DNA from: Nitrospirota bacterium
GTDB lineage: Bacteria; JACPQY01
Assembly: GCA_016180645.1 (NCBI GenBank)
Contig: JACPAV010000010.1
Span: 1-64,000, forward strand
Direction: 5' to 3'
Length of the DNA stretch: 64,000 nt
The notes under the pieces are model-generated. The model did no database searches, was not told where the DNA came from, and saw only the letters and a list, made by a program, of their open reading frames with translations. The translations under genes were made by a program, and so were the position numbers. Position 1 is the stretch's first letter. Each line of letters begins with the position of its first letter. Of the stretch, positions 2 to 29,613 are shown one piece after another.

Positions 2-3000
2 GATCCTAATTCAAACGATTTCGGCGACCTCAACGTGGTGGAGTGGAGGGGTACCGTCTACACGACCCTCGCGGACTGGCAGGGGTCCGGCAACGGCTTT
101 GACGCGAATGCCACGGAGGGCGCCCCGCAGTTCATCAGCACGCAGGCTCCATTCGATTTTCACGAGCGGTCCAACTTTGGAACGTGGTGCCCCTGCGGGA
201 TGCAGGACGACCCCCTCGACGGCTATCCGGCCACTCCGATCTGCAACGGCTGCTCCGCGGGTGTGAACGCGGCCTGTGACCGGACCACCGCAGACCCCGA
301 TTGCTGGTTCACCTTCTCCAACCATTCCCTGGCCATCGATACCGGAGCGAACGCCGGTTCATACACCAGCTTCTCGAATGAAGTGAAGGACAACGGCGGA
401 CGGCGGAACGCCGGCCGCTACGGGGATACCACCGAGGCCTCCCTCTCCGGCTGTCTCACCTTCGACAACTCCTGGGTGGGGAAGACGAACACGTCGTGGA
501 GCACGGCGAGCAACTGGTCCACGGCGGGCGTACCCGGCGCGGGCCAGGCCGTCTGCATCGGCGACCCCGCCGGCTTCGCGAACAATCCGATCCTTAACGC
601 GGACAGCATCATCGGCTCGCTCACCGTCCGCTCCGCATTCGGGTCCGGGCTTCTCGCCGGGGTCCTCGTCATGGACAATGCGAGCGGCACGGGAGGCGGC
701 GTCTGCGGAGGCGCCACGCGGGATTGCATTCTCACCGCGACGGGTAGTGTCGATTTGCAGACCGGCGCGACGCTCACCTTCACGGCAGGCGACGCGGGAC
801 GCCTGCGTATCGGGCGCAACTTCACCCAAACCGGCGCCTTCGGCACGAACAGCGGAACGGTTGAACTCTGCGCGGGCGCCGATGACGCCGCCGTGCCTGG
901 AAATCCGGATTGCGGCACGGCCGCAACACAGTGCATCGACGCCTCGGGCGATTTCTGGACGCTCAAAGTGACGAACGCGCTCGGCGCCTCCGCCGCCTGC
1001 CCGGCGCCGTGCGCGGGGTCCGGGTTCGTCTGCACCGGATCGAACTTCGGCATCAAGAACTCTTTCGACTCGAACGGCAAGTTCCTCGCGTCCGGTGGCG
1101 CCGTCACACTGAACGGCGCGAGCGCCGAAACGATCACCGGCGCGGCGGGCGACGCCTTCGCCACGCTCACGATCAACGATGCGAGCGATCCCGGCACGAT
1201 CACGATGGACTTCAACGGGACCGTTCAGGTGAATACGGCGCTGAACGTGGCCGACGGCAAGCTCTCGATGACGGGTCCCGATGTCCTCGCGTTTGCGAAC
1301 GGCGCCGCGCTCTCGGTGACCATGCCCGACGGATACCTCACGACGAATCTGACCGGCGGCAAGCCGACGATTCGCGGTCCCGTGGACGGCGGCAACAACT
1401 GCACGGGCACGTATGGCTTCAACCTGGACGGCACGGCGTCCACCCTCGACGTCAACGGCGTCGTCCTCCGCTGCCTCAATGACACGGGCCTGAATTTCTC
1501 GGCGGCCGCCTTCGCCCGATTCCAGGATGCCGAGTTCCTTCGCCCCGGACTGGTGGTCACCAACACCTCTCGCCACATCAGCCTCCCGGCGGCAGCCGCT
1601 TTCACCCTCATCGGTCCCACCTTCGACGGCAACGCCAACTACAACATCTACGAGGCGGCCGCGTCGACGGCCACGGTGACCGTGGCGGGCGGGCTCGGCG
1701 CGAAAGGTGAAGAGACGGAGTCGGGAGCCGACGGAACGGGCGAATCGAACGATTGCGACAACGGCGACGATACCTACAGCTCGGGGCTGTTTGGTTTCGC
1801 CGCGAACAACGGTTGCGGCGACAACTCCACCGCCTCGGAAGGAAAGATTTCGTGGACGTATCCCCATTTCACGTGGACGGGCACGATCAACTCCGATTGG
1901 AACAACCCCGGCAACTGGAACCGCATCGACAAGGGGGACTCCTGCACCACCGCCACCGAGCTCTGGCCGGGGCAGAGCGCGGTCTCCCAATACTGCGACG
2001 TCCTCATCATGGACCAGGCCAACGACCCGGTCATGAACGTGGACGGCATCACGCGCGACCTGACCGTGGCCAACAGCGGCGTTCTGAATCCAAACGGCAA
2101 AATCCTGTCCGTCTACGGCAACCTCACCAAGGATTCCAGCTCGACCTTCTCGTCCAGCGTCGACCTTCGGGCCGTGGGCGGCAACAACCAAAACTTCGTT
2201 TTCTCGGGCGCCTCCACGCAGACGATCTCCCAGCTCACCACGAACAAGACCGTGGGCAAAGCGATGACGCTCAACACGAGCCTGATTGTGAGCGGGACGA
2301 CAACGGTGACCTCGGGAACCTTCCGATTGGGCGGCGGAATCACGTTCGAGCCGCAGGCCGCCCTTACGGTGAGTTCGAACGGGACGTGGGATCTCGGATC
2401 GAGCTCCACCACGAAGCGCGGCAACAACGTCACCCTCGACGGGACCTTCGCGTCGGCTGGAACCAGTGTCATCACGACCAACGCGCGCAACGCCGTGGAA
2501 GCCTCCGCCGATCCCTGCGGCGCGCGCAATGCCTTCAATGTCGGCGCCGGCGGCGCCGGAACCCTGAACGTCTCCGGGCTGACGTTCCTCTGCGCCGATG
2601 CAAACGGGTTCCAGATCCAGAACGGCGTGACGCTCACCGCGCTCAACAACGTCACGTTCCGCCATGCCCCGTCGGGTGGGACCCATCTTACGATCAACCG
2701 CGCGGCCGGCTCGGCAGCGAAGACATTCACCGGCATGGCCTTCGATCCGACCTTCAACGAAACCGGCTGCGCCGGGGCCTCGGGTCAAATCGTCCGCAGC
2801 ACGGGCGGCGCGGGATCGGGAGCGATCACGATTCAAGACTACGAGTACGGCGGCACGTGTACCGACCCGGATGCGATGGATACCGAAACGACCATCGACA
2901 ATGTCTGGCGCAGCAAGACCAACTGGTCGGGCAACTGGCGGAAACGTCTTCCCGTCACGATCAACAATACGACCGGCGCCGCCTTCGACGAAGGCCGAAG

Positions 3001-6000
3001 CGTACACTACAAAACCAGCGTCGCGGCCTCGCCGGGGAACGCCGTCTGCAATGGGAGCGAGGACGCCACCGGGCCGGACAAGCGCGAGGATTTCCGGCTG
3101 ATGGCTTCCGATGGCGCCCAAATGGACCACATTCCGGTCGAGATCAAGAACTTCAATTGCCCGGGGGCCGGCACTCACGACATCGAGTTCTGGTTCAAAC
3201 TCCCGCGCCGGGTCCCCGCCGGAGGGTCGGACACCGGAGTCTCCTTCATGTACGGCAACGACGGGAGCGCCACGACGTCGCCTTCCCAGCCGACCTACGA
3301 CGACAGCGAGCTCACGGCCTCGGCCGTCGATTGCGACGCCGTGGACGGCGCGCCCGACTACTGCGGAGAGGGCGCCGAGGTCACGATCACCGGCCTCTGG
3401 AACGAGACTCATAACTGGACGCCGTGCTTCCTCCCGGACGCCTACACGCAGGTCGTGATCGACGAAGGAGTCACTCCCTTCCGTTTTTCACCCACGGTGA
3501 ACGTGCCCGTGACGATTCGAAAACTCGACGTGATCGATTCCCGCGCCACGGCCGATACCACCGACGCCCTGGTCGTCACTACGAACAACCTCACGGCCAG
3601 CGGCAATATCGAAATCCTGACGAACGGGAAGATCGATGCATCCGCGTCCTCCGCCGCCATCACGCTCGCCGGTTCGTGGGGAAACTCCGGCTCGTTCCTG
3701 GCCGGGCAAACCACGGTCACTTTCAATGGAACGGCGAGTCAGTCCATCTCGGACACCAAGGGCACCCCGGACCCCTTCTACAACCTCACGATATCCGATC
3801 GCGTGAACGGCACGTGCGCCGATCGGAAGGTTTGCGCAAGCACGTCCTTTACCATCAAGAAGAACTTCGTTTCCTCCGGCGATTTCGAGTCCACGAGCGG
3901 AACGACCACCTTCGGCGGAACGACGACCCAGACGCTCACCGCCGCCGCGGGGGACATTTTCAACAACCTCACGATCAACAACTCCGGCGCAACGCAGGCC
4001 GACGAAACCGTGACGGCGACCAACTCAACGTTTTCCGTTACCGGTTCCGCGGGCGGCACGCTGGCGGTCTCGGATGGAACCCTGAAACTGGTCGGCGCCA
4101 CCATCGCGAAAGTCAAGACGGCGGTGGACGTCCAGTCCGCCGGCACGCTGCGAACGGAAACGTCCGGCGGCACCCCATGCTTCACCAATCCGCAGAGCAC
4201 GTCGTGCGGCGCCTCCTCGGCCGGGAACAACTTCGCGTTCACCGTATCGGGGACGTTCGACGTGAGCGGACTTGCCGTGGACCGCGCCGATGCGAGGGGA
4301 TTGGACGTTCAAAGCACGGCTACCGTGACCCAGGCGAGCGAACTGTTGTTCACGAACAGCCTGGGCGGGGGCGCCTCGGCCTACATCAATCTGCCCAATT
4401 CGGCGCTCGCCTATTCATTCCTCCTCCCCAGCTTCGACGCGGCGCCCACCTACAACATCCGCGCCACAACGGTGAACCCCACCGCCGGCGTGATTGGAGC
4501 GGGAGGAGCCAAGGGGCAGGAGGATTCCACGGGCGGGAACGGGATCGGCGGCGAGGAAAACGATTGCGACCCGAGCGACGCCGGCTACACGGGCGCCGGC
4601 GCCGGATGTGGAAGCACGGTGGACGGCAGCCAGGGCCAAATCACGTGGTCCTACCCGAACTTCATCTGGGAAGGGGATTGCAGCGCGGCGTGGGACGACG
4701 GCCGAAACTGGAAGACCCATTCAAACGCCGCCGACTATCCGGGGTGCACCGGCGGCGCGCCCTGCACGGCCGGGTCGCATGACGTGTTGATCCAGGCGCC
4801 GATTGCCGCCGGTCCCGATCAGGACGGCGACGGCTGCACGGCCTCCAACAACCCCACGCTGTCCGCCCCGGCCGCGATCACCCTCCGCGATCTTACCCTG
4901 GCCGGCGGCGCCAACCTCACGTTGAGCAACACCTCTCTCACGCTCTCCCGCACCTTCTACAAGTCCGGCGCGGCCGCGGTCTCCCACACGGCCGGCACGC
5001 TCATCCTGAACGGCGCGGATGTTGGGGGAGCGACACACGACGTATCGATCTACGGCGCCACGGAGCTCAAGAATTTCCAGATCAGTCACGCGAACATCAC
5101 CGCGCGGTTCATGGGCGGCCCGCTGACGATCGACAACAGGCTGAACGTCACCGTCGGAACGTTCGATCTCAACGGCAACCGCGTCATCGTGCAGGGAACG
5201 ACCACGCCGGCCTCGGCGCTGACCGTGACGGGCACGCTCTACATGCCGGGGTCTTCGAGACTGGAGCTGGAAGACGTGGCCGCCTCCCTCACCGCCTCCA
5301 TCACCACCGGCCGGCTCACCACGCTGAAAAATACACAAGGCACGCCCACGATCACCGCCAAGCCGCCGGGAAGCGCGCCGGTGTGCAACGCAGACCGCTC
5401 CAAGAGCTTCGCCTTCAACTTGACCGGGACGTCCATCCTCGACGTGGACGGCCTCAACTTCTCCTGCGCGAACATCGCGGGCTTCACCGTCGCCGCCGGG
5501 ACGAACATCTCCAAGTTCAACAACGTCAGCTTCACGAACGCCACGCCGTCCTCCGCCTACAACGGCGCCACCCACATGACCATCACCGGCCCGGTGACGG
5601 GCACCACCTCCTTCAGCTTGATCTCGTTCGACGACAGCTACGTGGAGCAGGGAGTCGTGTCCGTCGGCGCCGTCGTTCGCGCCCGAGGGGACAACGCTCC
5701 GGTACAGGGCTCCTGCAACTCCGATCCGCCGGGGGGGGGGTGCGAACTCTTCACGTTCACTCAGTACAGCTACGGAGGCCTCTCCGCCCCCCAGACGGTG
5801 GATGAAACGCTCAACGGAAGTTTCATCCGGTGGACCCGCACCGCGAACTGGGCCGCGCGGTGGGACAAGAAACGGCAGATCACGATCCGCGAGTGCCCGG
5901 CCGGCGCGTGCGACGCGAACGACGTGGCCCGGCTCTACTTCGACTCCACCACGGTTCCGACCGGCTCGGACCTGTGCGCGGCCAGCACGAGCGCCGTGAA

Positions 6001-9000
6001 GGGCAACGACATCCGGATCTACTACGCAGCCTCGCCTCCGCAGGAAGTCCCCCGCCAGATGGTCCAGATGAACTGCACGACCAATGTCGTGGAGATCAAG
6101 TACAAACTGGTCAATACGATCGGCGGCGTGCCCAACAACGACTACTTCCTCATGTACGGCAGCTCGAACGCGCCGGATCCCTGCACGCAGAACCCGACGA
6201 TGTGCGTCACGCTGGACGAAACCCTTTTTTCCGACGGCTTCGAACGGGGCAGCCTGACGACGAACTGCTCCGACAGCGGCGCGGGATCGTGCAACGGCGA
6301 TACCGGCATCGGCGCGGGCTGGATCGAGAACCAGTGCAACGCGACGCTCGATGACGAAGCCATCATCAGCGACGCCTCGGACAACCCGAACGTGGTCGGC
6401 GGCGGCCGCGGCCTGGAGGTCGGGGGCCTCAACAACGGTCCCGGCGTCGTCTGCGCCGACACGCCCCAAATCAACACCACCGGAAGACGGGATGTCCACG
6501 TCATCTACTACCGCCGGACGATGGACAACTTCGCCGGCGGCAACGACAACTACCGAGTCCAGTTCCTGGATGTCACCAGCACCGTCCGCGCCATTGAAGG
6601 TCCCACCGGCTCGGGCAGCCCGTGGACCAAGATGGACTTTCTAATCACCACGCCCGCCTGGATCGACAATGGCGCCTGCGCCCCCAACTGCAACGTTCGA
6701 GTGAGGTTCAAGGACGACGGCCGGAGCGATCCCCAACTGGGCGAGGACATGTGGGTGGACGATATCCAGGTCGTGGCGCTGCCACTCGATCTGGACGGAA
6801 ACGTCGCGTTCGGCGGCTCTTGCGGCCGGCGGATCTGCTTCAGCGCCGTAGAAACGGACGTCCGGGGCAAATGGTCCGAACCCTTCAACTGGTCGCCCAA
6901 GCAGGCCACGGATGCCAACACGGACGTGATGATCAACAACGCAACCACGGCGTTCCGGTGGGATCCGGACGTGGACGTGGCCAGTGCGGCTTTTTCCATC
7001 CAGGTGGTGGACAGCCGCTCCTCCGAGGCCTCGGATGCAAATCAACTCTCTCTCTCTCCCGCGGCGACCCTCACCGTCACCTCCGGTTTCACCGTCGGCG
7101 CGAACGGGAAGGTCGGCGGGCTCCGGGAGGACAACCTCACGCCCGGCATTGAGGCCAATCTCGATGTGAACGGGATGCTGAGCGTGGACGCCGGCGGCAC
7201 TCTCGATTTCACCGGATCGAGCAACACGTTGACCGTCGCCGGAGATTTCACCTCGAACGGAACGTTCTCCCCCGGGTCGAACACGATCACCCTCGACGGA
7301 AGCAGCGCGTCCAATCAGGTTCTTACGACGGCTCCGGCAACCGCATTCAATCATTTGACGATCTCGTACACCGGAACGGGCGATGTGACGACGGCGTCCA
7401 CCTTCAGCGTGGCGGGCAATTTCACCTCGAACGGCCAGCTCAATCAAAGCGCGGGAACGATCACAATGAACGGCACGGGTGCCCAAACGTTCGCCACCGC
7501 GGCAGGGGACATCCTCGGCGCCCTCACGGTGAACAACACGGCCGACCCGGCCATCAACCAGGTCGTGATGACCAATTCCACCGTCCGAATCAACGGGGCC
7601 GTAACGATTTCCCAAGGGGCGTTCAAGATCCAGGGATCCAGCGTGCTCAATGGAGGCACGGGGCTCACCGTCGGCGCGAACGGCCGGCTGATCGTGAACT
7701 CCACAGGGGCAGGAAAGCCGCTCATCGATTCAACGGGCGCCGGCACGAATATCAGCTTCGCGGTCACCGGCAAGCTGGACGTCAACGGCCTCACGCTCCG
7801 GCGCCTCAACAACTTCGGCCTCGTCGTCAACAGCGGCGCCCAGGTCCTGGCCTTGAACGAAGTCGGCTTCGAGACGGGGCAAAACGGCGCGGGATCCGTC
7901 TACATCGGCCTGCCGACGGATGGCGTCGACTATTTCTTCCTCCTTCCTACGTTCGACGCGAATGCGGCCTACAACATCAAGGTCGCCGCGGGCTATCCCG
8001 GCGTCAACACCGTTCGCGTCGAGGCGGCCGCCGGAGCGAAAGGCCAGGATGACTCCACCGGGGGCAACGGGATCGGCGGCGAAGAAAACGATTGCGATCC
8101 CGGTGATGCCGGGTACACGGGAAGCGGGGCAGGGTGTGGCAGCACCACCGATGCAAGCCAGGGACGCATCGCGTGGAGCTACCCCAATTACATCTGGGAC
8201 GGCGACAACGGCGTCGGCGGCGATTCGGATGGCCTCTGGACGACGGCGTCCAACTGGAAGAGCGGCCTCGCGCCGTCCACCGGGGACTGCCCGAGCACCG
8301 ACGACGTCCTGATCGCCACGCCGGCCGTGAACGATTGCAGCGGCGGCACCGCCCCGTGCTGGCCCGCCTTCGGCGCCGGATCGGTGTTCGTCAACAACCT
8401 CACCTTGGCCGCGGGAACGACCCTCACCGTGAGCACGGCCGGGACCTTCGGGATCTGCGGCGACTTTTTCAAGAGCGGCACGGCCGCGCTTTCCCACACG
8501 GCAGGAACGATCGAAGCCAGAGGAGCGAACAGCAAGGATTTTACCCTCCTCGGGAACGCGACGTTCAATGCCTTCCGCCTCAACAAGGGCGCCGCAGCGA
8601 CAACGCTCACGCTCAAATCGGGCGATCTCACGGTGAACACCGTCACGAATCTCGACGTCGGCACGCTCGACCTGGCCGGGCGGACGTTGACCTCGGTCGG
8701 AAACCTCACCGTCGCCGCCAATGGAGTCCTGAACCTGACCTCGGTTTCAGCGCTCAAGATGGGAAACACCGCCGCGGCTGCCGTCAACGGGAAACTGACG
8801 AGTCCCTCCGGCAGCAACCCGACCATTACCGGGAACGGCGCGCCTTGCACCGCGGGCCGCTATGGATTCACGGTGTCCGGCGCGGGCGCCATATTGGACC
8901 TCTACGCGCTGAACTTCTCGTGCGCCAACGCCAGCGGCTTCAACGTTCAATCGACTGTTCCGGTCGGCGGATTCGTGAGGATGGACAATGTCAACTTCAC

Positions 9001-18000: not shown

Positions 18001-21000
18001 CCGGATGACGGGTCCGGTATCGCTCACGGTCACGGGAGCGATCAGCCAAGCCTCTGCCGCAACGTTGCAAACGGACCAGACGGGTGGGAAACCGACGCTC
18101 TCGGGTCCGGCCGCCGGATATCTGGCCTACGCGCCTTCCGGGCCGCTCAATCTCGACGGCCTCGCGCTGAACCGACTCACCAACCCCGGGCTGGACCTCT
18201 CGGCGAACCCGACGCTGACGTTTTTCCGCGACGTGGATTTCACGAATGGGCAGAACGGCGCCTCTTCGCGCTACGTGACTCTGCCGGCGGCGGCCGTGAA
18301 CTGGACCTTCCGCCGCCCGGGCTTCGACGCAAGCGCCGTGTACAACGTCTACACCACCTCGGCATCGCCGATCGTGTTCGTAGCGGGTGCAACGGGGGCG
18401 AAAGGTCAGGACGACAGCACCGCGGGCAACGGCATCGGCGGCGAGGAAAATGACTGCGACCCGAGCGATACCGGCGGCTGCGGCGACACCTCGGACGCCC
18501 TCCAGGGCCAGATCTCCTGGGCGTACGGAACCTACATTTGGGAGGGCGACGTGAGCAGCAGTTGGGCAACGGGCGCGAACTGGCTCGGCAACCCGGCGGG
18601 TCCGCCCACCACCGCGGATGACGTCCTCATCATTGCGCCTCTTCCCGGCGGGTTTGACCCCGTCATTGGCGCGGCGGCGACGGCCAAGCGGCTCTGGATA
18701 GCCGGCACGGGGAACCTGACTGTGGGTGCAAACCTGGCCATCGAAGGGGATCTGATCAAGGCGGCTACTTCGACGTGGAGCCACACGGCCGGGACCGTGA
18801 CGTTCCAGGGCGGGGTGAACCAGACGATCAACGTGGGCGGCACGCCGAACTTCCTGAACCTGACGATCGCAAAGGGGGGCGGAACGGTCTCGACCGCAAG
18901 CAGTTTCAACGTGGCGGGGAACTGGAGTTCGGACGGCACGCTGAGGGCCTCGGCGGGAACCGTGACGTTCAATTCCGCCACCGCCGATCAAACGTTTGCG
19001 GCCGTTGGCACGGACGAGTTCTACAATCTTGCCGTCTCGAAAGCAGGCGCCTTCAAAGTCACCACCGTCTCCTCCTTCAAGGTCAAGAACAACCTCGCCT
19101 CCGACGGCCGGTTCGAAGCCACCGCGGGAACGGTCACCTTGGAAGGAACAGGGAACAAGACGTTCACGGCGGCGTGCCCGACGCCCTACACGACGTGCGA
19201 CGAGTTCTTCAACCTGAGCCTCAACAACAGCGGTGGGGCGGGATCCGACCAATACAATCTCGGAGCGTCGGACTTTGAAGTCAAAGGCGCGCTGACGCTC
19301 GTCGACGGCGTGATCAACCTCACCGGCACGGCCAACGTCTACTTCGGTCCGGGTGCGACGCTCAACGTGCAGGTCAACGCCGAACTGGAAGCGCGCAAGT
19401 CCACCGCAAGCGAGCACTGCGACGCGGATGACGCTTCCCCATGGAGCATCGGCGCCGCATCCTTCCCGAAGCTGACGACCTCCGCCGGAAACTTCGCGTT
19501 CAGCCCGAACCCGGCCGGCAAGCTCGACTTCGACGGCCTCATCATCGACAAACTCAACGACAACGGTTTGACGCTGGCGGCCGGGACCAATCTCGTGGCC
19601 TTCAACGATGTCTGCTTCACCGGCGGGCAGAACGGCGCCTCCTCCCGCTACATCGCCGCGCCCAGCGCCGCCGTGTCGTACCTCTTCACGAGGCCCTATT
19701 TCGACGGCAGCGCCGTCTACAACGTCTACACCCCGGACTCCACGCCGCTGGTCGTCATTTCGGGGGCGCAGGGCGTGAAGGGTCAAGAGGACGCCGTGGA
19801 TGGCGACGGCATCGGCGGCGAGGAGAACGACTGCGACGCGGTGGACTACGGCTACGCTCCGACGCCGAATGCCGCCGCGCCGACGAACGCGGGTTGCGGC
19901 TCGACCGGCAACTTCGCGCAGGGCCGCGTCATCTGGTCCTACCCGGCCTTCACGTGGACTTCAGCCACCGGTGTGGCCACGAAATGGGACGACGCAGGCA
20001 ACTGGTCCTGCGTCGTGACGGCGACCTGCTTCGACGCGGACTGCGACACGGATGGAGCCGGCGGGGCCGACACGACCGGCGCCCAGTGGCCGATTGCGAC
20101 CACGACGGGATGCACCGCCTTGATTGTCGATCGGGACGATGACCCGGATCTCTCGGGCGCGCTGAGCGCCGCCGTGAAGGATATGGTCGTCGCGTCGGGC
20201 ACGTTGAACGTTTCCACGAGCGGACTCCTGATGGTCTACGGCAACCTCTTCCGAGGGCAGGACAATACCCCCGCCACGTTCAACGCAGGAGACCGCGACG
20301 CCGAGATCAACCACACATCGGGAGAGGTTCAAATGATGGGGGCGAGCGCGTTGCAAAGCGTCATTCTCGTGGGGGGGGGGAGCCTGTGGAATTTCACCGC
20401 CGCCAACGCGAGCAACGGCGCCGACACGTTCAACAACACGGCGGACGACGGGACCGTTCGCCTGGAGGACAACGTTTCCATCCGAAACGCCATCACGGTC
20501 AACGACGGCATCCTCGACCTGAACGGAAAGACGGTCCACGTGGACAACGGCAAGACCTTCACGATCAACACGACCGGCCGGTTCAAGGCCGCCGGCACGT
20601 CCACCGTCACCGCGATCGATTCGAACACCGGAACCCCCTACGTGGTGGACTGCCAGGCCTCCGGATTCGTCTTCAACGCGAACGGAGCGCTGGACGTGAC
20701 GGGCCTGGACTTCTACTGCGCAAACGACAACGGCTTCAACATGGCCGCCACCGCCCTCACCGGGGCGTCGGAGAACTTCCGAAGCGTCGCCTTCCACGAC
20801 GTGGTGGACACGGCCGGCATCGCCGGGGCGCCCACTCACCTCACGGTGGCCCGTCCGGAAGGGTGGAACAACGACAACGGCGGCGCCTGGGATTGCAGCA
20901 ACCCGGGCCTCACCCTCTTCAAGAGCATGCAATTCGACGGAACGTTCGGGGAAGGCACGGGACAGATCGTCCGCTCTTCCAGCGCCGCGGGCGGCGCCCA

Positions 21001-24000
21001 GGAACGCATCCGCTTCTGCACCTACTTCGCGGGCGTCATCTCCAACCCCGACAAGGACGACTGCGACGTGGACACCAAAACGCCGGTCCCGCCGTGCAGC
21101 GCCGATGCGGACGAGATCGACAATGTCTGGGAGCGGTCCGTCTACTGGGCGGGCAACTGGGATTCCAGGAGGTCGGTGTTGATCCACCCGTCCACGCCCG
21201 CCAGGGGCGAGGTCATCATCCACCTGACGGACGGCTCGAACGGAAACCCGACCGCGGCCACCCTCTACAACGCTTCCTCCTCCGCCGTGAAGTGCGACGA
21301 TTTCCGCGTCCTCGCGTACGTGGCCAACGACAACAAGTTCGAGTATCGCGATGTCGGACGGATCATCGACAGTTGCACCAACCTCGACGTTCAAGTCCGC
21401 TTCTACGTCCTCAAGAACGCCGGAGACAGCAACCTCGACTACACCCTCTACTACGGGAACCCCAATGCGACTGCGCCGGGGCCGTTCACGCCTCCGAACC
21501 CCTCCGTAACGGTGAGCACGGACGCCAACTCGCCCGGTTCGCCATGCGGCAAGAAAGTGTGTGTCCAGGCCGAAGTCTCGACCGCCGGCCTGTGGTCGGA
21601 TCCGTACAACTGGGTCCCGGCGGGGAGGCCGGACGAAAATACGTACGTGACGCTCGACGACTCGACCGTCGGCTGCGCCAACGCGCCGCCCGGCGGCTGC
21701 TTCCGCCACGATCCCGAACTGGATGGTGAGCAGACAGGAACGGCCACGGGGGCGACCGCAACGACGCTCTCGGACACGGCCCAGGCCTGGGCGACCAACC
21801 AATGGGCGGGTGGGACCGTTGAGATCACGTCAGGCACGGGGGTAGGCCAGACGAGAAGCATCCTGAGCAGTACGAACACGACGGTCACAGTAGCTTCGGC
21901 GTGGGGCACCACGCCGGCATCGGGCTCCGGCTACAAGCTCGCCGTGCAAGGCTTGGCGCTGTATCTCGACGTGCTCGACACGACGTCCAGCGCGGCGGAT
22001 AACGACGCCCTCAACCTGCTGGGCGCCAATTCCATGAAAGTCGGCTGGCTCCAGCCGGGCAACGATGCTCTCTACTACACGTCCGATGACGTCTCCGTAG
22101 GCGGCAACGTCACGATCGGCGCAAACGGAAAGGTCAACGGCGCGGGGGCCACCGGCACGATCCGTGTGCGCGGCAACTTCACCAACAACGGGGTTGGAGC
22201 GGGAGCGTTCACGGCGGGGAGCACGCGGGTGATCTTCGACGGCACGGCCGCTCAGACGCTCGGGGGCGGCAACGCCACCACCTTCTACAATCTCTGGACC
22301 CTCCGCGCGAACGCCACGCCTCTCTACATCAGCGGCGCGACGACGACTCTCAACGTGACCAAAGGCTTCACCCTCGCCTCCGGTGGGATCTGGGACCACT
22401 GCGCCGGAACGGTCAAGATCGCCGGCGGCGAGACCGTCACCGTGAACGGCAACCTGCGGACAAACGATGCGACCAACTGCGCTTCGGCGGCCACGCCCAC
22501 CGTTACGTCAACGGACGAAGTGACCCCCACGCGGTACAACTTCAACCTGAACGGCATCGTGGAGGTCAACGCCCTCAACTTCAAGTTCGCCACCTGCGCG
22601 GGCATGAACATCACGGCGACGGGAATAATCCTGAAACTCGACAACGTCAACTTCACCAACGCCCAGTCCGCCGGAACCTGCGGCCACCTCACGATCAATA
22701 TACCGGGGCCGGCAAGGGAAACGCTCTTCAACGCGACCTTCGACTCAAGCTTCAATATCGCCTCGGCGGGCTACTCCGGCGAAACGGCCAGCGTGGGCTA
22801 CAATGTGAAAGTGTGCGATACGAACGCGACAAACCATATCAGCGGAACGGGCAACGACGTGGTCGTCACCGTCGGCGCGCCGTCCGCGGGCGGCGGCGCC
22901 GGGTTCGGCGAGAACTTCGACCGCGAAGACCCCCCGGATGACGGCACGGGCGCCACGAGCAACGACTGCGCCGCAGCCAACGACGCCCGGATCGATTGGT
23001 CGAGCAACATCTCCACGACCCCCGGGCTGACCGTGGGTAAGGTCCGCGGCAAACCGGCGGTTGCGCTGGACGTGTTCAGCGTGTTCAAAGGCAACTACCT
23101 CGCCACGGGGAACGCAGCGGGCACCCAGGGCATCTATCTCATGGGCAACAACGCGGGCCTGAAATACGGATCGAACGCCGGCTACACGTGGGACCCGGTG
23201 GCCACGGGCGACGGCGAAATCGTCGGCGAACCCGTCTACGTGAGCGAACGGTGGTGCCCGGACAATCGGGACACCGTCTACATGGGCACCACCACCGGGC
23301 GCGTCCTCAAGCTCATCGACACCGGAACCCCCACCGGCGGGACGTGCCCTGCCGATGGCTCCGGCCTCTGCGCCATCGATTTCAACGGCGGGGCGGCGGG
23401 CATCGGTTTGTCCCTGGGCGATGAGGTCACCGGCCCCATGGCGGCTGACGGCGAATTCCTATATGTCCCCGTGCTCCAAGGAGGAGTGCCGAAGCTGAAA
23501 TCCCTGGAACTGGGCGACAGCTACGATTGCAACCTGGCGACGTGCGATGTAGCCACGGATCCGCCCGGCGGCGGCTGCGCGGGCTTCGCGGGGAATTGCG
23601 CCTCGGATCCGATAGCGGCCGGCTGCCACGAGCTGTTCACCCTCTGCAACAATCTTGGCTTCCAGGACTGCGCCGCGGTGGGAACCGGAACGGGTCGCGT
23701 CGAATCGCGCCCCGCGGTCATTACGGACACCGACGCGGATTGCGGCGTACAGTTCACCTACATCACGCTCGCGGGCCTTAATGGCTCCCCGGGAGGCGTC
23801 CTCCAGCGCGGCAAGGTGAGCAAGTTCGCCGCCTCGCCGGGCTGCGGCTTCCAGGCCACTCCCACGTACTCGATGGGGACGGCCTACGCCACGGCAGGCG
23901 ACGTGACGGCCAACATCACCTTCGACACCTATCTCCTCGCGGGCAGCGTTCTCGAAGGAGCCGCCAACCCGGTCTTCTATGCCCTCAACCCCACCGGGAT

Positions 24001-24565
24001 CAATCTGGCGGGCACGGACCTGGACAACGACGGCGTGGCGCCCGGCGGCGGCGAACTCACGGCCGATTTCCCGTATCCCACCGTGTATCTGGATGGGGCC
24101 AACACCACCGGAAACCGAGGCGCCGGCGGAATGCCCGGCGCCATCACCCTCGGCAACGTGACCACTCAACCGCTGCTCCATCCCACGGAAGCATTCGTTC
24201 TCTTCGGCGACTCGAACGGCAGGCTGCATTGCATCATCACGGACAACAAAGTCCCGATCGCCGCGGGTCAGCCGGGCGGCGGGGAGCCGTGCGGCCCCTC
24301 CTGGCCCGTTCAGCCGCAAGCGGGCCAAGCCATTGCGGCAGGGCCCCTCGCCTACGACGGCGCGGTGTACTTCGGATACCCAAACGGCCGGGTCTACTCC
24401 TATGTGATCGACAGCGACATCACAACGAATGGCGCCCAACCGCTGGAATCGTATGTCTACAATCTCGGCGTCAACCTGAGCGGCGATATTTCTCTCTCGG
24501 AGGAAACCCCGCGGCGGATCCTCGTCGGGGCCTCGGACGGCCGGCTCTTCTGGCTGCCGAAATGA
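2..24565 (+). CDS. Giant modular secreted/surface protein with DUF2341-like and PQQ-like modules, 5' partial
   Basis: One reading frame runs from the left edge for about 8,187 codons to a TGA. No stop separates the first codon from the window edge, so the start lies upstream. The first ~110 residues resemble the end of a right-handed beta-helix (a TTLADWQ motif shared with the 1,205-residue protein downstream, then LAIDTGANAG). The body repeats W-x-NW modules followed by strand-rich runs of the type LTVxxGTL-NxxG-LxVxGNL, six DUF2341-like modules (GNWxKRxxxTI ... YxLYYGNP), jelly-roll-like DGFER...DDI segments after copies 2, 3 and 5, and acidic ENDCD linkers. The last ~500 residues hold propeller-like blades (YMGTTTGRVLKL, VLFGDSNGRLHC, ILVGASDGRLFWLPK). 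No membrane anchor, autotransporter barrel or sorting motif is seen at the C-terminus. A surface or extracellular adhesin/stalk is inferred; substrate and partner are unknown. Confidence 0.9.
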   Translation, partial: DPNSNDFGDLNVVEWRGTVYTTLADWQGSGNGFDANATEGAPQFISTQAPFDFHERSNFGTWCPCGMQDDPLDGYPATPICNGCSAGVNAACDRTTADPDCWFTFSNHSLAIDTGANAGSYTSFSNEVKDNGGRRNAGRYGDTTEASLSGCLTFDNSWVGKTNTSWSTASNWSTAGVPGAGQAVCIGDPAGFANNPILNADSIIGSLTVRSAFGSGLLAGVLVMDNASGTGGGVCGGATRDCILTATGSVDLQTGATLTFTAGDAGRLRIGRNFTQTGAFGTNSGTVELCAGADDAAVPGNPDCGTAATQCIDASGDFWTLKVTNALGASAACPAPCAGSGFVCTGSNFGIKNSFDSNGKFLASGGAVTLNGASAETITGAAGDAFATLTINDASDPGTITMDFNGTVQVNTALNVADGKLSMTGPDVLAFANGAALSVTMPDGYLTTNLTGGKPTIRGPVDGGNNCTGTYGFNLDGTASTLDVNGVVLRCLNDTGLNFSAAAFARFQDAEFLRPGLVVTNTSRHISLPAAAAFTLIGPTFDGNANYNIYEAAASTATVTVAGGLGAKGEETESGADGTGESNDCDNGDDTYSSGLFGFAANNGCGDNSTASEGKISWTYPHFTWTGTINSDWNNPGNWNRIDKGDSCTTATELWPGQSAVSQYCDVLIMDQANDPVMNVDGITRDLTVANSGVLNPNGKILSVYGNLTKDSSSTFSSSVDLRAVGGNNQNFVFSGASTQTISQLTTNKTVGKAMTLNTSLIVSGTTTVTSGTFRLGGGITFEPQAALTVSSNGTWDLGSSSTTKRGNNVTLDGTFASAGTSVITTNARNAVEASADPCGARNAFNVGAGGAGTLNVSGLTFLCADANGFQIQNGVTLTALNNVTFRHAPSGGTHLTINRAAGSAAKTFTGMAFDPTFNETGCAGASGQIVRSTGGAGSGAITIQDYEYGGTCTDPDAMDTETTIDNVWRSKTNWSGNWRKRLPVTINNTTGAAFDEGRSVHYKTSVAASPGNAVCNGSEDATGPDKREDFRLMASDGAQMDHIPVEIKNFNCPGAGTHDIEFWFKLPRRVPAGGSDTGVSFMYGNDGSATTSPSQPTYDDSELTASAVDCDAVDGAPDYCGEGAEVTITGLWNETHNWTPCFLPDAYTQVVIDEGVTPFRFSPTVNVPVTIRKLDVIDSRATADTTDALVVTTNNLTASGNIEILTNGKIDASASSAAITLAGSWGNSGSFLAGQTTVTFNGTASQSISDTKGTPDPFYNLTISDRVNGTCADRKVCASTSFTIKKNFVSSGDFESTSGTTTFGGTTTQTLTAAAGDIFNNLTINNSGATQADETVTATNSTFSVTGSAGGTLAVSDGTLKLVGATIAKVKTAVDVQSAGTLRTETSGGTPCFTNPQSTSCGASSAGNNFAFTVSGTFDVSGLAVDRADARGLDVQSTATVTQASELLFTNSLGGGASAYINLPNSALAYSFLLPSFDAAPTYNIRATTVNPTAGVIGAGGAKGQEDSTGGNGIGGEENDCDPSDAGYTGAGAGCGSTVDGSQGQITWSYPNFIWEGDCSAAWDDGRNWKTHSNAADYPGCTGGAPCTAGSHDVLIQAPIAAGPDQDGDGCTASNNPTLSAPAAITLRDLTLAGGANLTLSNTSLTLSRTFYKSGAAAVSHTAGTLILNGADVGGATHDVSIYGATELKNFQISHANITARFMGGPLTIDNRLNVTVGTFDLNGNRVIVQGTTTPASALTVTGTLYMPGSSRLELEDVAASLTASITTGRLTTLKNTQGTPTITAKPPGSAPVCNADRSKSFAFNLTGTSILDVDGLNFSCANIAGFTVAAGTNISKFNNVSFTNATPSSAYNGATHMTITGPVTGTTSFSLISFDDSYVEQGVVSVGAVVRARGDNAPVQGSCNSDPPGGGCELFTFTQYSYGGLSAPQTVDETLNGSFIRWTRTANWAARWDKKRQITIRECPAGACDANDVARLYFDSTTVPTGSDLCAASTSAVKGNDIRIYYAASPPQEVPRQMVQMNCTTNVVEIKYKLVNTIGGVPNNDYFLMYGSSNAPDPCTQNPTMCVTLDETLFSDGFERGSLTTNCSDSGAGSCNGDTGIGAGWIENQCNATLDDEAIISDASDNPNVVGGGRGLEVGGLNNGPGVVCADTPQINTTGRRDVHVIYYRRTMDNFAGGNDNYRVQFLDVTSTVRAIEGPTGSGSPWTKMDFLITTPAWIDNGACAPNCNVRVRFKDDGRSDPQLGEDMWVDDIQVVALPLDLDGNVAFGGSCGRRICFSAVETDVRGKWSEPFNWSPKQATDANTDVMINNATTAFRWDPDVDVASAAFSIQVVDSRSSEASDANQLSLSPAATLTVTSGFTVGANGKVGGLREDNLTPGIEANLDVNGMLSVDAGGTLDFTGSSNTLTVAGDFTSNGTFSPGSNTITLDGSSASNQVLTTAPATAFNHLTISYTGTGDVTTASTFSVAGNFTSNGQLNQSAGTITMNGTGAQTFATAAGDILGALTVNNTADPAINQVVMTNSTVRINGAVTISQGAFKIQGSSVLNGGTGLTVGANGRLIVNSTGAGKPLIDSTGAGTNISFAVTGKLDVNGLTLRRLNNFGLVVNSGAQVLALNEVGFETGQNGAGSVYIGLPTDGVDYFFLLPTFDANAAYNIKVAAGYPGVNTVRVEAAAGAKGQDDSTGGNGIGGEENDCDPGDAGYTGSGAGCGSTTDASQGRIAWSYPNYIWDGDNGVGGDSDGLWTTASNWKSGLAPSTGDCPSTDDVLIATPAVNDCSGGTAPCWPAFGAGSVFVNNLTLAAGTTLTVSTAGTFGICGDFFKSGTAALSHTAGTIEARGANSKDFTLLGNATFNAFRLNKGAAATTLTLKSGDLTVNTVTNLDVGTLDLAGRTLTSVGNLTVAANGVLNLTSVSALKMGNTAAAAVNGKLTSPSGSNPTITGNGAPCTAGRYGFTVSGAGAILDLYALNFSCANASGFNVQSTVPVGGFVRMDNVNFTNALSGGTHFRVDRSAGPDGFTFSLQNPSFDNSFTEGSGFIVRAVGNGAPAQASCNPDPPAGGCEIITFNNFSYGGSGSPPNLDEQTSGILARWTRAQRWKGNWQKRRQITINNTGSAADTVRLYFDGTTNPTASSLVGQTFSAPNCDDLRVYYNGAPKQDVARSVLQCTSSVIEIKFKLVNAITSAPNNEYFLYYGNPAAATPPTYTADTVLFQDGFERPTGATVGNGWVEQVADPELTGICAAGGSSAGVAVGHTNSDPNGGGAAGGSLANSFLYRTLSTSGSRRIVVTYTRKTTADNNFDNNDFFRMEACSAAGACAPVTETAGYPCTALSGSLSWVGARTSIDYNQQFATVECVLGAAYENNANFALMFDMDRDIAFDEDLCVDDVKIESKPLNIDMKTGQASVSAVEEPTTGEFTDPFNWTPFGSPDTTTLARIEYGELISGVANNFRHGPDVDAATTVFSLDAINTQSAVDGAGDALNITTAALSTIGYMNVGTNGKVDASTSSVTLQVGGNWTDAGAVGKGYLAGTTTVQLNGAGAQVVTTSKDLYNLTVSNTAAAGINVTTASSFKVTNLFSSNGKFVASTPSTITLEAAANKAFAATGACTGPGYTDCDAFFNVTFNNTGAAGSDRYSASDSRFRVNGVMALTDGVFVLNGDGADADALNGQIIFGPSALLDLQAGAELETRKTNAAKHCDANDAAPWAIDDPANTFPKLTTSSAASYFAFNSAGTMDFDGLIVERPNNNGLTITSTASDRLVAFRDVCFVSGQNSGAHARYFAAPNASVSYFLLRPYFDAGAIYNVYTPNAVPTVTMAQAQGPTGEETESGADGTGESKDCDGGDASYAPTPSAAAPTNAGCGDAGATSQGRVIWVYPGFIWTSATGVANKWDDAGNWSCAVTPTCTDAMCDTDGNGGGDVTGAKWPDVTTPGCTILILDQDDDPDLSGALNAVSKDLVVATGTLNITTSGNLDVTGDLFRGADSDPATFNTGNGDAEINPSVAGGPIRMGTAAGTDAALQRITLSGGGALRKLTIRNGNNGADTTPNTPDDGTVRLEDNISIRNVVNVDDGILDLNGKTVSMDDAASFSVNLNGRLKTSGVSTITAMDSNTATPEIDCQASRFVFDINGSADIDGLDVACANSNGIHVASTATLTTAAPQLEKFRDVRFHQGVSGGTHFTIERPSGWSNDSAGTLDCPDAGLVLFRDFKFDGTFNEATGHIARGSGVAGGAEERIRFCDYFFGGVNDPSGLDQETNITLLWGRSPVWNGNWDYKRAVTVCPPGICPAPQSTAKKGRARIHLTGADAADVFGNSRADANDVRIVGFVANTGKFEVREVQRVIDTFNATDVILRFDLIQDASVDNRDYTLYFGNPGAAAPAAWTPPSNPPVTRDQDSGHVTVAARSTIAGLWSEPFNWTPMGAPDENSTAVIDASTQCFRNAPTLDAAVDLAKDSTNDDDYKVFSILARDTRTGCPPAAAAALTLTAEPFQVQRDMCIGIGGSTCAGATGLSAQVDAAGLTTTFKIGRHWRDKAPAAQGFLPGNTTIELNGTGLQEIDISNNKDFYNLTVTNSSAAVSCAGPTSGVCTDDSFGVLKNLTSNGRMGVGPGVPGTVTFRGSANQSLSLNVDGAAPDDNLNSVTVDNSGGVPNNVVTLTANGRMDGALAVNGGVFSITGLKQIKVGSAVSVALGGTFRAAPDGGGKPILVDTSSSDGAAANCSSDYSFDLDGVADVSGLEVRCVDAAGVDVSVSGTLTAWNEVEFSRPSSPGAGSRYMNFANVASICAGATCSILLNSFDANTDKNVRIAAGAGLALDMVNALGAKGQREACPGAGGNNLGGEEYDDDPDDVTGGGSVDCPLTEGRITWRYAHYLWLGGAGAGCATATAQAICWENANNWQVNPTSGGTCDAPPSYPNNAAASNGCDILILDQPNDPTLVTDIDIRDLLLVGGTVLTVNAGSTTQSLRREFFKSAAADIAHNSGTFTLSQAGNANLTVFGGETFQSLRLDKGVLADTITLNGGNLAVLGNTTLDRGTLNLNGYSLTQGTAGGGNLTVTDGNGGLTLTGASQLVMAAGRTALVAGSFTSTPSGGISPTVTSTAPGGSGADCVDRFGAFDVTGGTVNVTGMNVSCGNSGAEADGWNIGAGATLANFNNVSFTKTRPNTTHFTINRADTAAAATLTGLSFDCSYYQNWTGTPASCTTLGSGRIARGVGGGTPTQPTCDPDPPGANCEQVTFAQYTVPAGVNPSAQDEALNGMFIRWTRILRWGGDYAFKRALTVANPGPGNYAAGDVGEVELTGAAATQIYGASQTDGDDFRLFYAGSGAPVERSIDRVNSTFSLTLVKFRFQINPAVNSTASDPNYLLVYGNPSLAAGPSVDLGDKLLQDKFERAASTNLGNAEFPAGAPGPFAWSETVGDSDIKAGVLEGVGTLVVGGAVAGLNADVQIPRPTTTYASISVSYNRSSGTNFGGTLADQYIVEWTTANPPVGACGTWNVVESIGNSVGGTVSFNLGGGASNSPDFRLRFCQIKDSGFDGNLAIDNLLLTAGSVDAPPSSMSAGAAVSIKGDMSEYFNWTVSGARAGNGAIGSDTNTELEIDSVAQAFYYRPELNANIGVFALRALSTTSGDPTDTNALYLHDPDSNPAANSVTLTTQGQVKIGDNAAGKTALVQNALQVLDVGGEFLVDTGSTVNATLPAVGTGTIRTAGNFTISGTFTPGSTTVELDGTGTSDQTISHTGDFYHLTVSRTGTGKVITSNSFAVKRNFTSNGKFAASAGTVTLNSSSENQTLTTASGDAFFGLTVSNTGGGTTVSTATSFAVKKDFTSNGRFVASAGTVDFSGTTNQSVSAAAGDQFFGLTVSNGGGGTTVSTSSSLAVKGNFASNGKFSASAGTMDFNGTANQTITTTSADTFSGLTVSNSGVGATVSTATSLGVLGGFASNGKFRATAGTITLKGTANAGLTVATGDELWTLAMDKTGTAGNDILTVSGGSAKALGGLTLTDGIFRMTGPVSLTVTGAISQASAATLQTDQTGGKPTLSGPAAGYLAYAPSGPLNLDGLALNRLTNPGLDLSANPTLTFFRDVDFTNGQNGASSRYVTLPAAAVNWTFRRPGFDASAVYNVYTTSASPIVFVAGATGAKGQDDSTAGNGIGGEENDCDPSDTGGCGDTSDALQGQISWAYGTYIWEGDVSSSWATGANWLGNPAGPPTTADDVLIIAPLPGGFDPVIGAAATAKRLWIAGTGNLTVGANLAIEGDLIKAATSTWSHTAGTVTFQGGVNQTINVGGTPNFLNLTIAKGGGTVSTASSFNVAGNWSSDGTLRASAGTVTFNSATADQTFAAVGTDEFYNLAVSKAGAFKVTTVSSFKVKNNLASDGRFEATAGTVTLEGTGNKTFTAACPTPYTTCDEFFNLSLNNSGGAGSDQYNLGASDFEVKGALTLVDGVINLTGTANVYFGPGATLNVQVNAELEARKSTASEHCDADDASPWSIGAASFPKLTTSAGNFAFSPNPAGKLDFDGLIIDKLNDNGLTLAAGTNLVAFNDVCFTGGQNGASSRYIAAPSAAVSYLFTRPYFDGSAVYNVYTPDSTPLVVISGAQGVKGQEDAVDGDGIGGEENDCDAVDYGYAPTPNAAAPTNAGCGSTGNFAQGRVIWSYPAFTWTSATGVATKWDDAGNWSCVVTATCFDADCDTDGAGGADTTGAQWPIATTTGCTALIVDRDDDPDLSGALSAAVKDMVVASGTLNVSTSGLLMVYGNLFRGQDNTPATFNAGDRDAEINHTSGEVQMMGASALQSVILVGGGSLWNFTAANASNGADTFNNTADDGTVRLEDNVSIRNAITVNDGILDLNGKTVHVDNGKTFTINTTGRFKAAGTSTVTAIDSNTGTPYVVDCQASGFVFNANGALDVTGLDFYCANDNGFNMAATALTGASENFRSVAFHDVVDTAGIAGAPTHLTVARPEGWNNDNGGAWDCSNPGLTLFKSMQFDGTFGEGTGQIVRSSSAAGGAQERIRFCTYFAGVISNPDKDDCDVDTKTPVPPCSADADEIDNVWERSVYWAGNWDSRRSVLIHPSTPARGEVIIHLTDGSNGNPTAATLYNASSSAVKCDDFRVLAYVANDNKFEYRDVGRIIDSCTNLDVQVRFYVLKNAGDSNLDYTLYYGNPNATAPGPFTPPNPSVTVSTDANSPGSPCGKKVCVQAEVSTAGLWSDPYNWVPAGRPDENTYVTLDDSTVGCANAPPGGCFRHDPELDGEQTGTATGATATTLSDTAQAWATNQWAGGTVEITSGTGVGQTRSILSSTNTTVTVASAWGTTPASGSGYKLAVQGLALYLDVLDTTSSAADNDALNLLGANSMKVGWLQPGNDALYYTSDDVSVGGNVTIGANGKVNGAGATGTIRVRGNFTNNGVGAGAFTAGSTRVIFDGTAAQTLGGGNATTFYNLWTLRANATPLYISGATTTLNVTKGFTLASGGIWDHCAGTVKIAGGETVTVNGNLRTNDATNCASAATPTVTSTDEVTPTRYNFNLNGIVEVNALNFKFATCAGMNITATGIILKLDNVNFTNAQSAGTCGHLTINIPGPARETLFNATFDSSFNIASAGYSGETASVGYNVKVCDTNATNHISGTGNDVVVTVGAPSAGGGAGFGENFDREDPPDDGTGATSNDCAAANDARIDWSSNISTTPGLTVGKVRGKPAVALDVFSVFKGNYLATGNAAGTQGIYLMGNNAGLKYGSNAGYTWDPVATGDGEIVGEPVYVSERWCPDNRDTVYMGTTTGRVLKLIDTGTPTGGTCPADGSGLCAIDFNGGAAGIGLSLGDEVTGPMAADGEFLYVPVLQGGVPKLKSLELGDSYDCNLATCDVATDPPGGGCAGFAGNCASDPIAAGCHELFTLCNNLGFQDCAAVGTGTGRVESRPAVITDTDADCGVQFTYITLAGLNGSPGGVLQRGKVSKFAASPGCGFQATPTYSMGTAYATAGDVTANITFDTYLLAGSVLEGAANPVFYALNPTGINLAGTDLDNDGVAPGGGELTADFPYPTVYLDGANTTGNRGAGGMPGAITLGNVTTQPLLHPTEAFVLFGDSNGRLHCIITDNKVPIAAGQPGGGEPCGPSWPVQPQAGQAIAAGPLAYDGAVYFGYPNGRVYSYVIDSDITTNGAQPLESYVYNLGVNLSGDISLSEETPRRILVGASDGRLFWLPK
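5731..5740 (+). repeat. G10 homopolymer tract in the giant gene
   Basis: Ten consecutive G inside the coding frame encode the Gly run of PPGGGCE. Tracts of this length are prone to slipped-strand length change; a one-base change would shift the frame here. Confidence 0.85.
17240..17910 (+). repeat. Four tandem ~57-residue (171-174 base) repeats
   Basis: The motif TSNGKFxASAGTVxFxGTxNQ followed by FFGLTVSN recurs with its anchor (tccaacg) at 17288, 17462, 17633 and 17804, giving steps of 174, 171 and 171 bases. The last copy is the most diverged. This is the cleanest tandem array in the giant gene and probably adds turns to a beta-solenoid. Confidence 0.85.
19060..21720 (+). repeat. Intragenic segmental duplicate of ~10690-13330
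   Basis: The protein stretch here follows the same order as the one encoded at about 10690-13330: a C-rich DCDEFF/DCDAFF segment, ELEARKSTASEHCDADDA versus ELETRKTNAAKHCDANDA, the PTNAGCG linker, KWDDAGNWSC, CDTDG, DDDPDLSGAL, LFRG, ERIRFC, then DUF2341. Divergence is substantial at both protein and base level, so the duplication is old but clearer than between other modules. Confidence 0.75.
20371..20380 (+). repeat. Second G10 homopolymer tract in the giant gene
   Basis: Ten consecutive G inside the coding frame, encoding part of VGGGSLW. It lies about 14.6 kb after the first tract in the same gene. It is a candidate phase-variable site. Confidence 0.85.
21727..21953 (+). other. Small module nested inside a W..NW unit
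   Basis: In other copies the segment RHGPDVDAATTVFSLDAINT is continuous. Here DPELDG is followed by about 75 residues containing TATGATATTLSDTAQAW, NQWAGGTVEITSGTGVGQTR and TTVTVASAWGTTP, after which the parent fold resumes with LALYLDVLDT. The inserted motif resembles a short beta module I have seen in other secreted and phage-related proteins. It is a clean nested insertion. Confidence 0.7.
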
Positions 24566-25128
24566 GACTTCTTGTTGCCTTCCTCATGGGACTGTGGCTT
24601 GCAGTACCGGTCTGGGCCGAGAGCCGCCCTGTTCGGGCGGTAGACAGCAAGGCCCTCAAGGAAAAGTTCTCCTTCACCACAAGGGCATCGGTGCCCGGAA
24701 TCGAACGGGCAGGGGCGACGTTCGAAACAGCCTTCCAGTACCTCGGCGGCCTCAAAGGCGTGGAAAAGATCGCCCTCCGGACATGGGACCCCATCTACGA
24801 GATCGTTTCCGGCTCGGGGCCGTCCGCCTGGGCGGGAGAAACCGTGATGGATCGCGCGAAAACCAATCTCGTGAAAGGCCGTTCATTCCGGATTCCGGCC
24901 GGCTCGGTCGGCGCGGGGGAGTTCCGCTTCCGTCTCAAGCGGCGTGTGCCTGAAGCGGACGAACCATGGATGACGCTCGAAAAGGAGCGCCGGATCAAGA
25001 CGCTGTCGGTCGATGAAGTCGAGTTGAAGGGGAAGGAACTGGGACTCTACGACGTCGAATTCGAGGTGGAGGTGAAATACTCGGACGGCCGGGCGGAGAA
25101 GACCGCTCTGAATATTGAAGTCCGCTGA
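24562..25128 (+). CDS. Small exported protein of unknown function
   Basis: The ATG overlaps the giant gene's stop as ATGA, a classic coupling arrangement, and gives 188 residues. The first 21 (MRLLVAFLMGLWLAVPVWAE) form a typical signal peptide with an AxA-like cleavage site. The mature part has no cysteine and is basic and strand-rich: TTRASVPGIERAGATFETAF, then RTWDPIYEIVSGSGP, RAKTNLVKGRSFRIPAG and a C-terminal LGLYDVEFEVEVKYSDGRA. It looks like one or two compact beta domains. I do not recognise the family. Its place between two very large secreted proteins suggests a periplasmic chaperone, adaptor or assembly role; this is inference. Confidence 0.75.
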   Translation: MRLLVAFLMGLWLAVPVWAESRPVRAVDSKALKEKFSFTTRASVPGIERAGATFETAFQYLGGLKGVEKIALRTWDPIYEIVSGSGPSAWAGETVMDRAKTNLVKGRSFRIPAGSVGAGEFRFRLKRRVPEADEPWMTLEKERRIKTLSVDEVELKGKELGLYDVEFEVEVKYSDGRAEKTALNIEVR

Positions 25129-28824: not shown

Positions 28825-28854
28825 TTGACACATGACTATACACGTGTCTATACT
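28825..28854 (+). promoter_or_regulatory. Promoter/operator of the first Phd-PIN operon
   Basis: TTGACA at 28825-28830, 18-base spacer, TATACT at 28849-28854, then 6 bases to the ATG at 28861. The spacer carries an imperfect palindrome centred on CACGTG (TATACACGTGTCTATA), a likely binding site for the autoregulating antitoxin. The transcript would be leaderless or nearly so. Confidence 0.65.
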
Positions 28855-28860
28855 TGTATC

Positions 28861-29163
28861 ATGCAAAAGGTAAACGCCCTTCAACTCAGGCAGTCTCTAG
28901 GCAAGATTTTGAGAAAGCTGGAGAAGACCGGCGAGCCCATCCTGGTCGAGAAGAATCGCGAGCCCAAGGCGGTGCTCGTGACGGTGAAGGATTTCAAAGA
29001 ACGCTATCTGGACTTGCCCAGGCCCTCGCTCGAAGAGCGAACTCGAATCGTGGAGCGAATTGATGAACTGGCCAAAAGGGTGGCCCCGGAAATCGAGCCG
29101 ACCATACCCGGCGTGAACGATATCGTGACGCTTATCCGGCAAATGCGGGGTCCCCTTCGCTGA
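28861..29163 (+). CDS. Phd/YefM-family antitoxin
   Basis: The 100-residue protein begins MQKVNALQLRQSLGKILRKL and continues EKTGEPILVEKNREPKAVLV, the standard Phd/YefM N-terminal DNA-binding fold with its GEPIxVxKxxxPxAVLV strand. The C-terminal half is helical and charged (SLEERTRIVERIDELAKRV), the part that normally wraps the toxin. The ATG at 28861 is chosen because a consensus promoter ends just before it; an upstream TTG at 28825 would lie inside the -35 box. The stop overlaps the first codon of the PIN gene. It would act in the cytoplasm to neutralise the downstream PIN toxin and repress the operon. Confidence 0.88.
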   Translation: MQKVNALQLRQSLGKILRKLEKTGEPILVEKNREPKAVLVTVKDFKERYLDLPRPSLEERTRIVERIDELAKRVAPEIEPTIPGVNDIVTLIRQMRGPLR

Positions 29164-29602: not shown

Positions 29603-29613
29603 CTACGAGTCAC

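Follow-up and report, generated by a model that had tools for sequence, protein, structure and literature searches.

The window analysed here, a stretch of 64,000 nucleotides from a Nitrospirota genome, opens inside an enormous reading frame, raising the questions of whether a gene of this size is real, of what its product is built and how that product might be exported and used. The first letter of the window is also base 1 of contig C10, so that the frame is open at its 5' end and its 8187 codons, which contain no stop in a frame scan, are a minimum. The probability of such a stop-free run arising by chance at 65% GC was computed as ~10^-90, and the other five frames contain 20 to 418 stops over the same interval. 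The GC3 excess (0.72-0.90) is confined to the giant's frame in each 1-kb bin, and related module pairs differ at 0.47-0.55 of third positions compared to 0.26-0.36 of second positions. A short-read misjoin at repeats is unlikely given that the frame lacks exact direct repeats of 24 bp or longer. The single huge mosaic frame of the preliminary description is thus borne out, with a coding signature throughout; the visible part of the product has a mass of 837 kDa, a pI of 4.4 and 2% Cys.

Searches of the raw giant sequence against Pfam and NCBIfam returned nothing above the cut-offs. Self-comparison yields numerous pairs with identities of 24-59%, and leave-one-out profile searches delineate 14 copies of a homologous module of 344-576 aa, each opening with a W...NW-type motif and each recovered at E <= 2.7e-29 (Z=1000) by a profile built from the remaining 13; as a control, the module profiles found zero matches in shuffled and reversed sequence. 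With M for module, L for acidic linker, D for DUF2341 and J for putative beta-sandwich, the order is M1 L M2 D M3 L M4 D J M5 L M6 D J M7 L M8 D M9 L M10 D J M11 L M12 L M13 D M14 L propeller (Table 1). The W..NW solenoids and the acidic linker (alignment A1) reported earlier are both present. A supermodule of ~3 kb, said to recur six or seven times, is also seen, but, as judged from the profiles, the basic unit is the 14-fold, probably beta-helical module: the supermodule consists of two modules and one DUF2341 domain, occurs six times and leaves M12 as an extra module. A profile search of the rest of the genome found the giant's modules only in one paralogue, encoded on contig C16, and a supermodule profile had no confirmed relatives among the named genomes.

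Table 1. The giant reading frame, its predicted parts and the neighbouring genes (positions in the window)
Feature	Position	Strand	Evidence or remark
Giant ORF, >=8187 aa	2..24565	+	5' end cut by contig edge
Probable right-handed beta-helix domain, end part (residues 1-154)	2..463	+	weak alignment
Predicted beta-helix module M1 (W..NW start)	464..1723	+	leave-one-out E 4.8e-47
Predicted beta-helix module M2	1865..2896	+	leave-one-out E 2.3e-29
DUF2341 domain 1	2897..3301	+	profile-profile vs sister-genome DUF2341, prob 99.1
Predicted beta-helix module M3	3368..4507	+	leave-one-out E 1.5e-57
Acidic Cys-containing linker (GGEENDCDPSD...GCG...)	4508..4657	+	alignment A1
Similar linkers	1724-1864, 8033-8203, 11468-11638, 14456-14632, 18392-18532, 19769-19951, 22922-23011		
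Predicted beta-helix module M4	4658..5827	+	leave-one-out E 5.1e-37
DUF2341 domain 2	5828..6199	+	profile-profile
Putative beta-sandwich (jelly-roll) 1	6233..6826	+	alignment A8; Pfam/PDB match absent
Predicted beta-helix module M5	6842..8032	+	leave-one-out E 9.3e-66; AF2 + VIA-align
Predicted beta-helix module M6	8204..9271	+	leave-one-out E 1.4e-38; AF2 + VIA-align
DUF2341 domain 3	9272..9616	+	profile-profile
Putative beta-sandwich 2	9620..10201	+	alignment
Predicted beta-helix module M7	10223..11467	+	leave-one-out E 1.3e-58
Predicted beta-helix module M8	11639..12775	+	leave-one-out E 4.5e-54
DUF2341 domain 4	12776..13141	+	profile-profile
Predicted beta-helix module M9	13199..14455	+	leave-one-out E 5.1e-51
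Predicted beta-helix module M10	14633..15775	+	leave-one-out E 2.7e-29
DUF2341 domain 5	15776..16147	+	profile-profile
Putative beta-sandwich 3	16151..16645	+	alignment
Predicted beta-helix module M11, longer owing to additional inner repeats	16664..18391	+	leave-one-out E 2.1e-97
Predicted beta-helix module M12	18533..19768	+	leave-one-out E 2.1e-70
Predicted beta-helix module M13	19952..21121	+	leave-one-out E 3.2e-48
DUF2341 domain 6	21122..21526	+	profile-profile
Predicted beta-helix module M14	21563..22921	+	leave-one-out E 5.8e-33
PQQ/BamB-type beta-propeller, C-terminal, common to paralogues	23012..24562	+	PDB profile matches
188-aa protein, signal-peptide-like start	24562..25128	+	overlaps giant's stop codon; same operon
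1205-aa protein, signal-peptide-like start, Pfam Beta_helix	25115..28732	+	PF13229 5.2e-6; same operon
Minor-pilin-like genes	PilX-like ends 29617; PilV-like 30866-31621; FimT-like 32098 (+)		

The fold of the modules was addressed with an AlphaFold2 model of one supermodule (M5-L-M6-D-J), for which the input alignment comprised seven stretches of the window. The mean pLDDT is 64.9, with values of 70-93 across most of the solenoids. When compared to known structures with VIA-align 2, model residues 442-810 match the tailspikes 6f7k (Z 17.4, rmsd 3.9, 294 aligned residues) and 2vbk (Z 17.2), and residues 61-491 match the PL6 lyase 7o7a (Z 16.1, rmsd 4.3, 302 aligned); beyond residue 810, that is, in the DUF2341 and beta-sandwich part, matches are sparse. 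Foldseek returned zero matches to this model at E <= 0.001, so the assignment comes from AlphaFold2 and VIA-align, and with moderate confidence we consider all 14 modules likely to be parallel beta-helices. The predicted fold is the right-handed parallel beta-helix of phage tailspikes, PL6 lyases and autotransporter passengers (VIA-align Z 12-17), but in contrast to those proteins, the giant carries 14 helices serially in one chain, shows no sequence match at the Pfam level and has no autotransporter barrel.

A related domain probably precedes M1. Giant residues 15-27 (WRGTVYTTLADWQ) can be aligned to WRGTNATTLADWQ, found at residue 341 in the Beta_helix protein encoded two genes downstream; the alignment is weak overall and points to residues 1-154 as the probable end of a right-handed beta-helix domain. 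Extrapolating from this one weak alignment, the missing part may comprise only a signal and that beta-helix domain, ~300-400 codons; this would fit the finding that, elsewhere in the genome, further modules are seen only in the C16 protein. Among ~100 contig ends (60 starts, the start of C39 and 40 ends), none overlapped the 5' edge by 12 bp or more and none had a frame recognizable as the continuation of the giant. Contig C39, with pilin-like genes at its edge, was discarded as the continuation since its last 129 bases have no evident gene start and its pseudopilin is the GspG protein of type II secretion. Elsewhere in the assembly, further large repeat proteins, with DNDCNGTVDD, Calx-beta-like and NHL-like repeats, are cut at the contig starts L118, L130, L137 and L153, large secreted proteins with repeats being abundant in this genome. 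The ends of many contigs (for example, L105, L112, L114 and L139) contain one and the same translated element, GGSSDPPDKREHLKMLPYES, which probably represents a dispersed repeat at which the assembly breaks up.

The helices are interspersed with six DUF2341-like domains, spaced by 2.9-3.5 kb with one interval of 5.4 kb. Single copies fall short of the Pfam cut-off (PF10102), yet when the six copies are aligned, their profile matches three domains in a protein of 4737 aa from a sister genome with an hhalign probability of 99.1% (E 1.5e-18); the latter protein reaches PF10102 at 1.5e-12 and is also matched by the A1 profile. By this comparison, the six domains belong to DUF2341, as originally called. 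Large extracellular proteins with DUF2341 have been described from archaeal type IV pilus loci (PMC4858521), whereas here the six copies space beta-helix modules. The optional jelly-roll of the preliminary description corresponds to a segment present after three of the six DUF2341 domains; the label itself is plausible, but none of the three segments has a match in Pfam or PDB. A more specific identification as a MAM (MAM / InhA-like) domain found no support: the Pfam and PDB searches were blank, and hhalign failed to link the segments to the MAM-like regions of paralogues.

At the C-terminus, the profile of the last domain matches the designed propeller Cake9 (6tjh, 1.6e-39), 3hxj (1.4e-9) and BamB (8orr, 1.7e-5) in PDB. 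Profiles from alignments A3 and A4 recover 3hxj (1.4e-9 and 5e-11), BamB 8orr and, at 1e-39 to 1e-48, the designed Cake propellers, and several family members show weak matches to PF13570/PF13360. On these profile matches, the C-terminal domain is a PQQ/BamB-type propeller, in agreement with the PQQ-like propeller noticed at the outset; the AlphaFold2 model of this part is poor (pLDDT 38).

At least four more proteins of this genome, and six of the sister genome (JACPQY01, a groundwater MAG deposited as Nitrospirae bacterium), terminate in the same propeller, the two genomes being our sample of the phylum. In this genome, besides the giant, these are encoded on C16 (4426 aa), C21 (1611 aa), C2 (an 1837-codon frame) and C11 (a 903-codon frame); in the sister genome, on C21 (4737 aa), C82 (4152 aa and one cut), C28 (2363 aa), C22 (at least 2294 aa) and C61 (cut). 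In all 11 aligned proteins, no more than a few residues separate the C-terminus from the final propeller strand (..G...G..[YF].L..), and several finish in DPTP or DPSP; the upstream parts vary, including PPC, fn3, Big_1, DUF2341, sialidase-like BNR repeats and beta-helix arrays. The most telling result comes from beyond the window: as far as sequence can tell, this C-terminal propeller unites a family of predicted secreted proteins that otherwise differ. In ~290 genomes, nearly all from outside the phylum, weak propeller matches were found in two at E <= 1e-8, and a DUF2341 region was found at the same threshold in one genome beyond the two phylum members; a four-row propeller profile matched the sister MAG alone in the named-genome scan, and none were found in the phage and plasmid collections. 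Two further frames with propeller starts are cut at the ends of contigs C18 and C56 in this genome. The start of C56 (L149) and the end of C18 (L173) share an identical 99-bp stretch within the propeller-coding region, so that the assembly graph seems to be interrupted there by near-identical propellers of paralogues.

The route of secretion, previously described as open, appears so at least in part because the contig edge removes the giant's N-terminus, and the complete paralogues partly close this gap. Sec-like starts were found in the C16, C21 and C2 proteins and in the 4152-aa and 4737-aa proteins of the sister genome, with a hydrophobic stretch in C16, C2 and both sister proteins. The genome encodes gspC, gspD, gspE and gspF on C4 and gspG on C39, all above NCBIfam cut-offs, and PilQ within the window. 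The absence of an evident anchor holds for the visible 8187 aa, in which we found no convincing transmembrane segment. The simplest path, and the likely one, would be Sec followed by type II secretion. A classical autotransporter was rejected, the C-terminus being a propeller and a Pfam match to an outer-membrane barrel being absent. Type IX cargo was rejected as well, as the tail domain Por_Secre_tail (PF18962) is absent from the genome, whereas a Bacteroides control matched. By analogy with the C-termini of type IX cargo, the PQQ-type propeller could be a new sorting, export or anchoring module of the phylum, a possibility that we regard as rather unlikely.

Downstream of the giant, the 188-aa protein of the same operon has no Pfam match. 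Between this operon and a minor-pilin-like gene set lie an antitoxin-like ORF and a PIN-domain-like ORF of VapBC-type appearance (28825-29573). The set itself (29606-32655) includes PilX-, PilW- and PilV-like genes on the minus strand and a FimT-like gene on the plus strand, with short stretches encoding PGTRNQEPGT repeats upstream of the prepilin motifs. A 23S rRNA intervening-sequence (four-helix) protein is fused in frame to the front of the FimT-like frame. Following four prepilin genes, positions 55430-58891 encode a protein of 1153 aa that is PilX-like at its N-terminus, contains many Cys and has zero matches in Pfam and NCBIfam.

Taken as a whole, these observations suggest, with a probability of about 0.58, that the giant is a secreted surface protein exported via Sec and type II secretion that acts as an adhesin or as a coat or matrix rod; the secretion of the giant itself, its surface location and its adhesive or structural role are what we infer. 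The host would be a Gram-negative, groundwater-type bacterium in which an N-terminal signal just past the contig edge sends the giant to Sec, with type II secretion as the most probable means of then passing the outer membrane. Once exported, the giant would form a long, stiff, acidic rod of a leading beta-helix domain and 14 parallel-beta-helix modules, with the acidic linkers as hinges, the DUF2341 and beta-sandwich domains as spacers and the propeller at the C-terminus. Such a rod would probably be an adhesin or a coat or matrix fiber, with the spacers and the propeller providing binding or docking faces.

The giant could instead be a PilY1-like tip adhesin of type IV pili, with the propeller docking on minor pilins and the N-terminal part binding the target, a reading that we consider quite unlikely. 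PilY1/PilC proteins likewise combine a C-terminal propeller with variable N-terminal regions and occur as several paralogues per genome (PMC13190605), DUF2341 has been put forward as a domain of archaeal pilus-tip proteins and reportedly occurs in PilY as well (PMC4858521), the minor-pilin-like set lies 1-4 kb past the end of the giant's operon, mostly on the opposite strand, and pilM...pilQ are located at 36-41 kb. However, Neisseria_PilC (PF05567) matches none of the 11 propellers at E <= 10 and 3HX6 is missing from the PDB matches at the same threshold, the propellers being of the PQQ/BamB type instead; the pilin genes are convergent and outside the giant's operon, the other propeller-protein loci examined have no prepilin motif nearby, and the giant is far larger. 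Membership in the PilY1 family was rejected on these grounds.

It is similarly doubtful that the giant is polysaccharide-active, its modules binding or cleaving glycans and the tandem array providing a multivalent glycan grip or a depolymerase. In structure, the modules indeed come closest to tailspikes, PL6 alginate lyases and GH28, and two propeller paralogues adjoin what read in sequence as exopolysaccharide chain-length/BY-kinase-like genes (L023 and L024), but beta-helix matches indicate fold, not function, the modules are mostly 25-60% identical, and the invariant columns of alignment A1, chiefly W, N, G, P, C, F and D, include no recognizable catalytic set. An assembly or annotation artefact, whether misjoined modules or a non-coding open frame, is exceedingly improbable: the assembly is fragmented, with large repeat genes cut at many contig ends, but the giant ORF contains no repeat of at least 24 bp, GC3 stays in frame along its entire length, substitutions between modules concentrate at third positions, and the independent sister genome has comparable giants of 4152-4737 aa.

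As a secreted surface rod, the giant would join a known class and is not a size record. Giant surface proteins have been described before, many known giant bacterial ORFs being adhesin-like surface proteins (PMC11573180, PMC10066038); those of Omnitrophota reach 39,678 aa (PMC10066038), and Giant1-5 of Apilactobacillus kunkeei span 3,000-8,000 aa (PMC12863079). The shared features are very large size, encoding by one gene, a surface or extracellular location (or a proposal thereof) and frequent origin from poorly characterized lineages, as here. Many Omnitrophota giants have multiple transmembrane helices, whereas none was seen here, and the beta-helix array, DUF2341 and the C-terminal PQQ propeller distinguish the present protein. 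Within the collections searched, both the architecture and a C-terminal propeller shared across the phylum are new.

These findings indicate that the very large secreted proteins of a barely sampled phylum include a family with nothing in common but a C-terminal propeller. They also provide a parts list, beta-helix and DUF2341, for giant proteins of a class in which recognizable domains are usually lacking. Should the propeller be a sorting module, a single domain would deliver the differing N-terminal parts to the surface or hold them there. The propeller-ended family thus turns the export and holding of such giants into a testable question.
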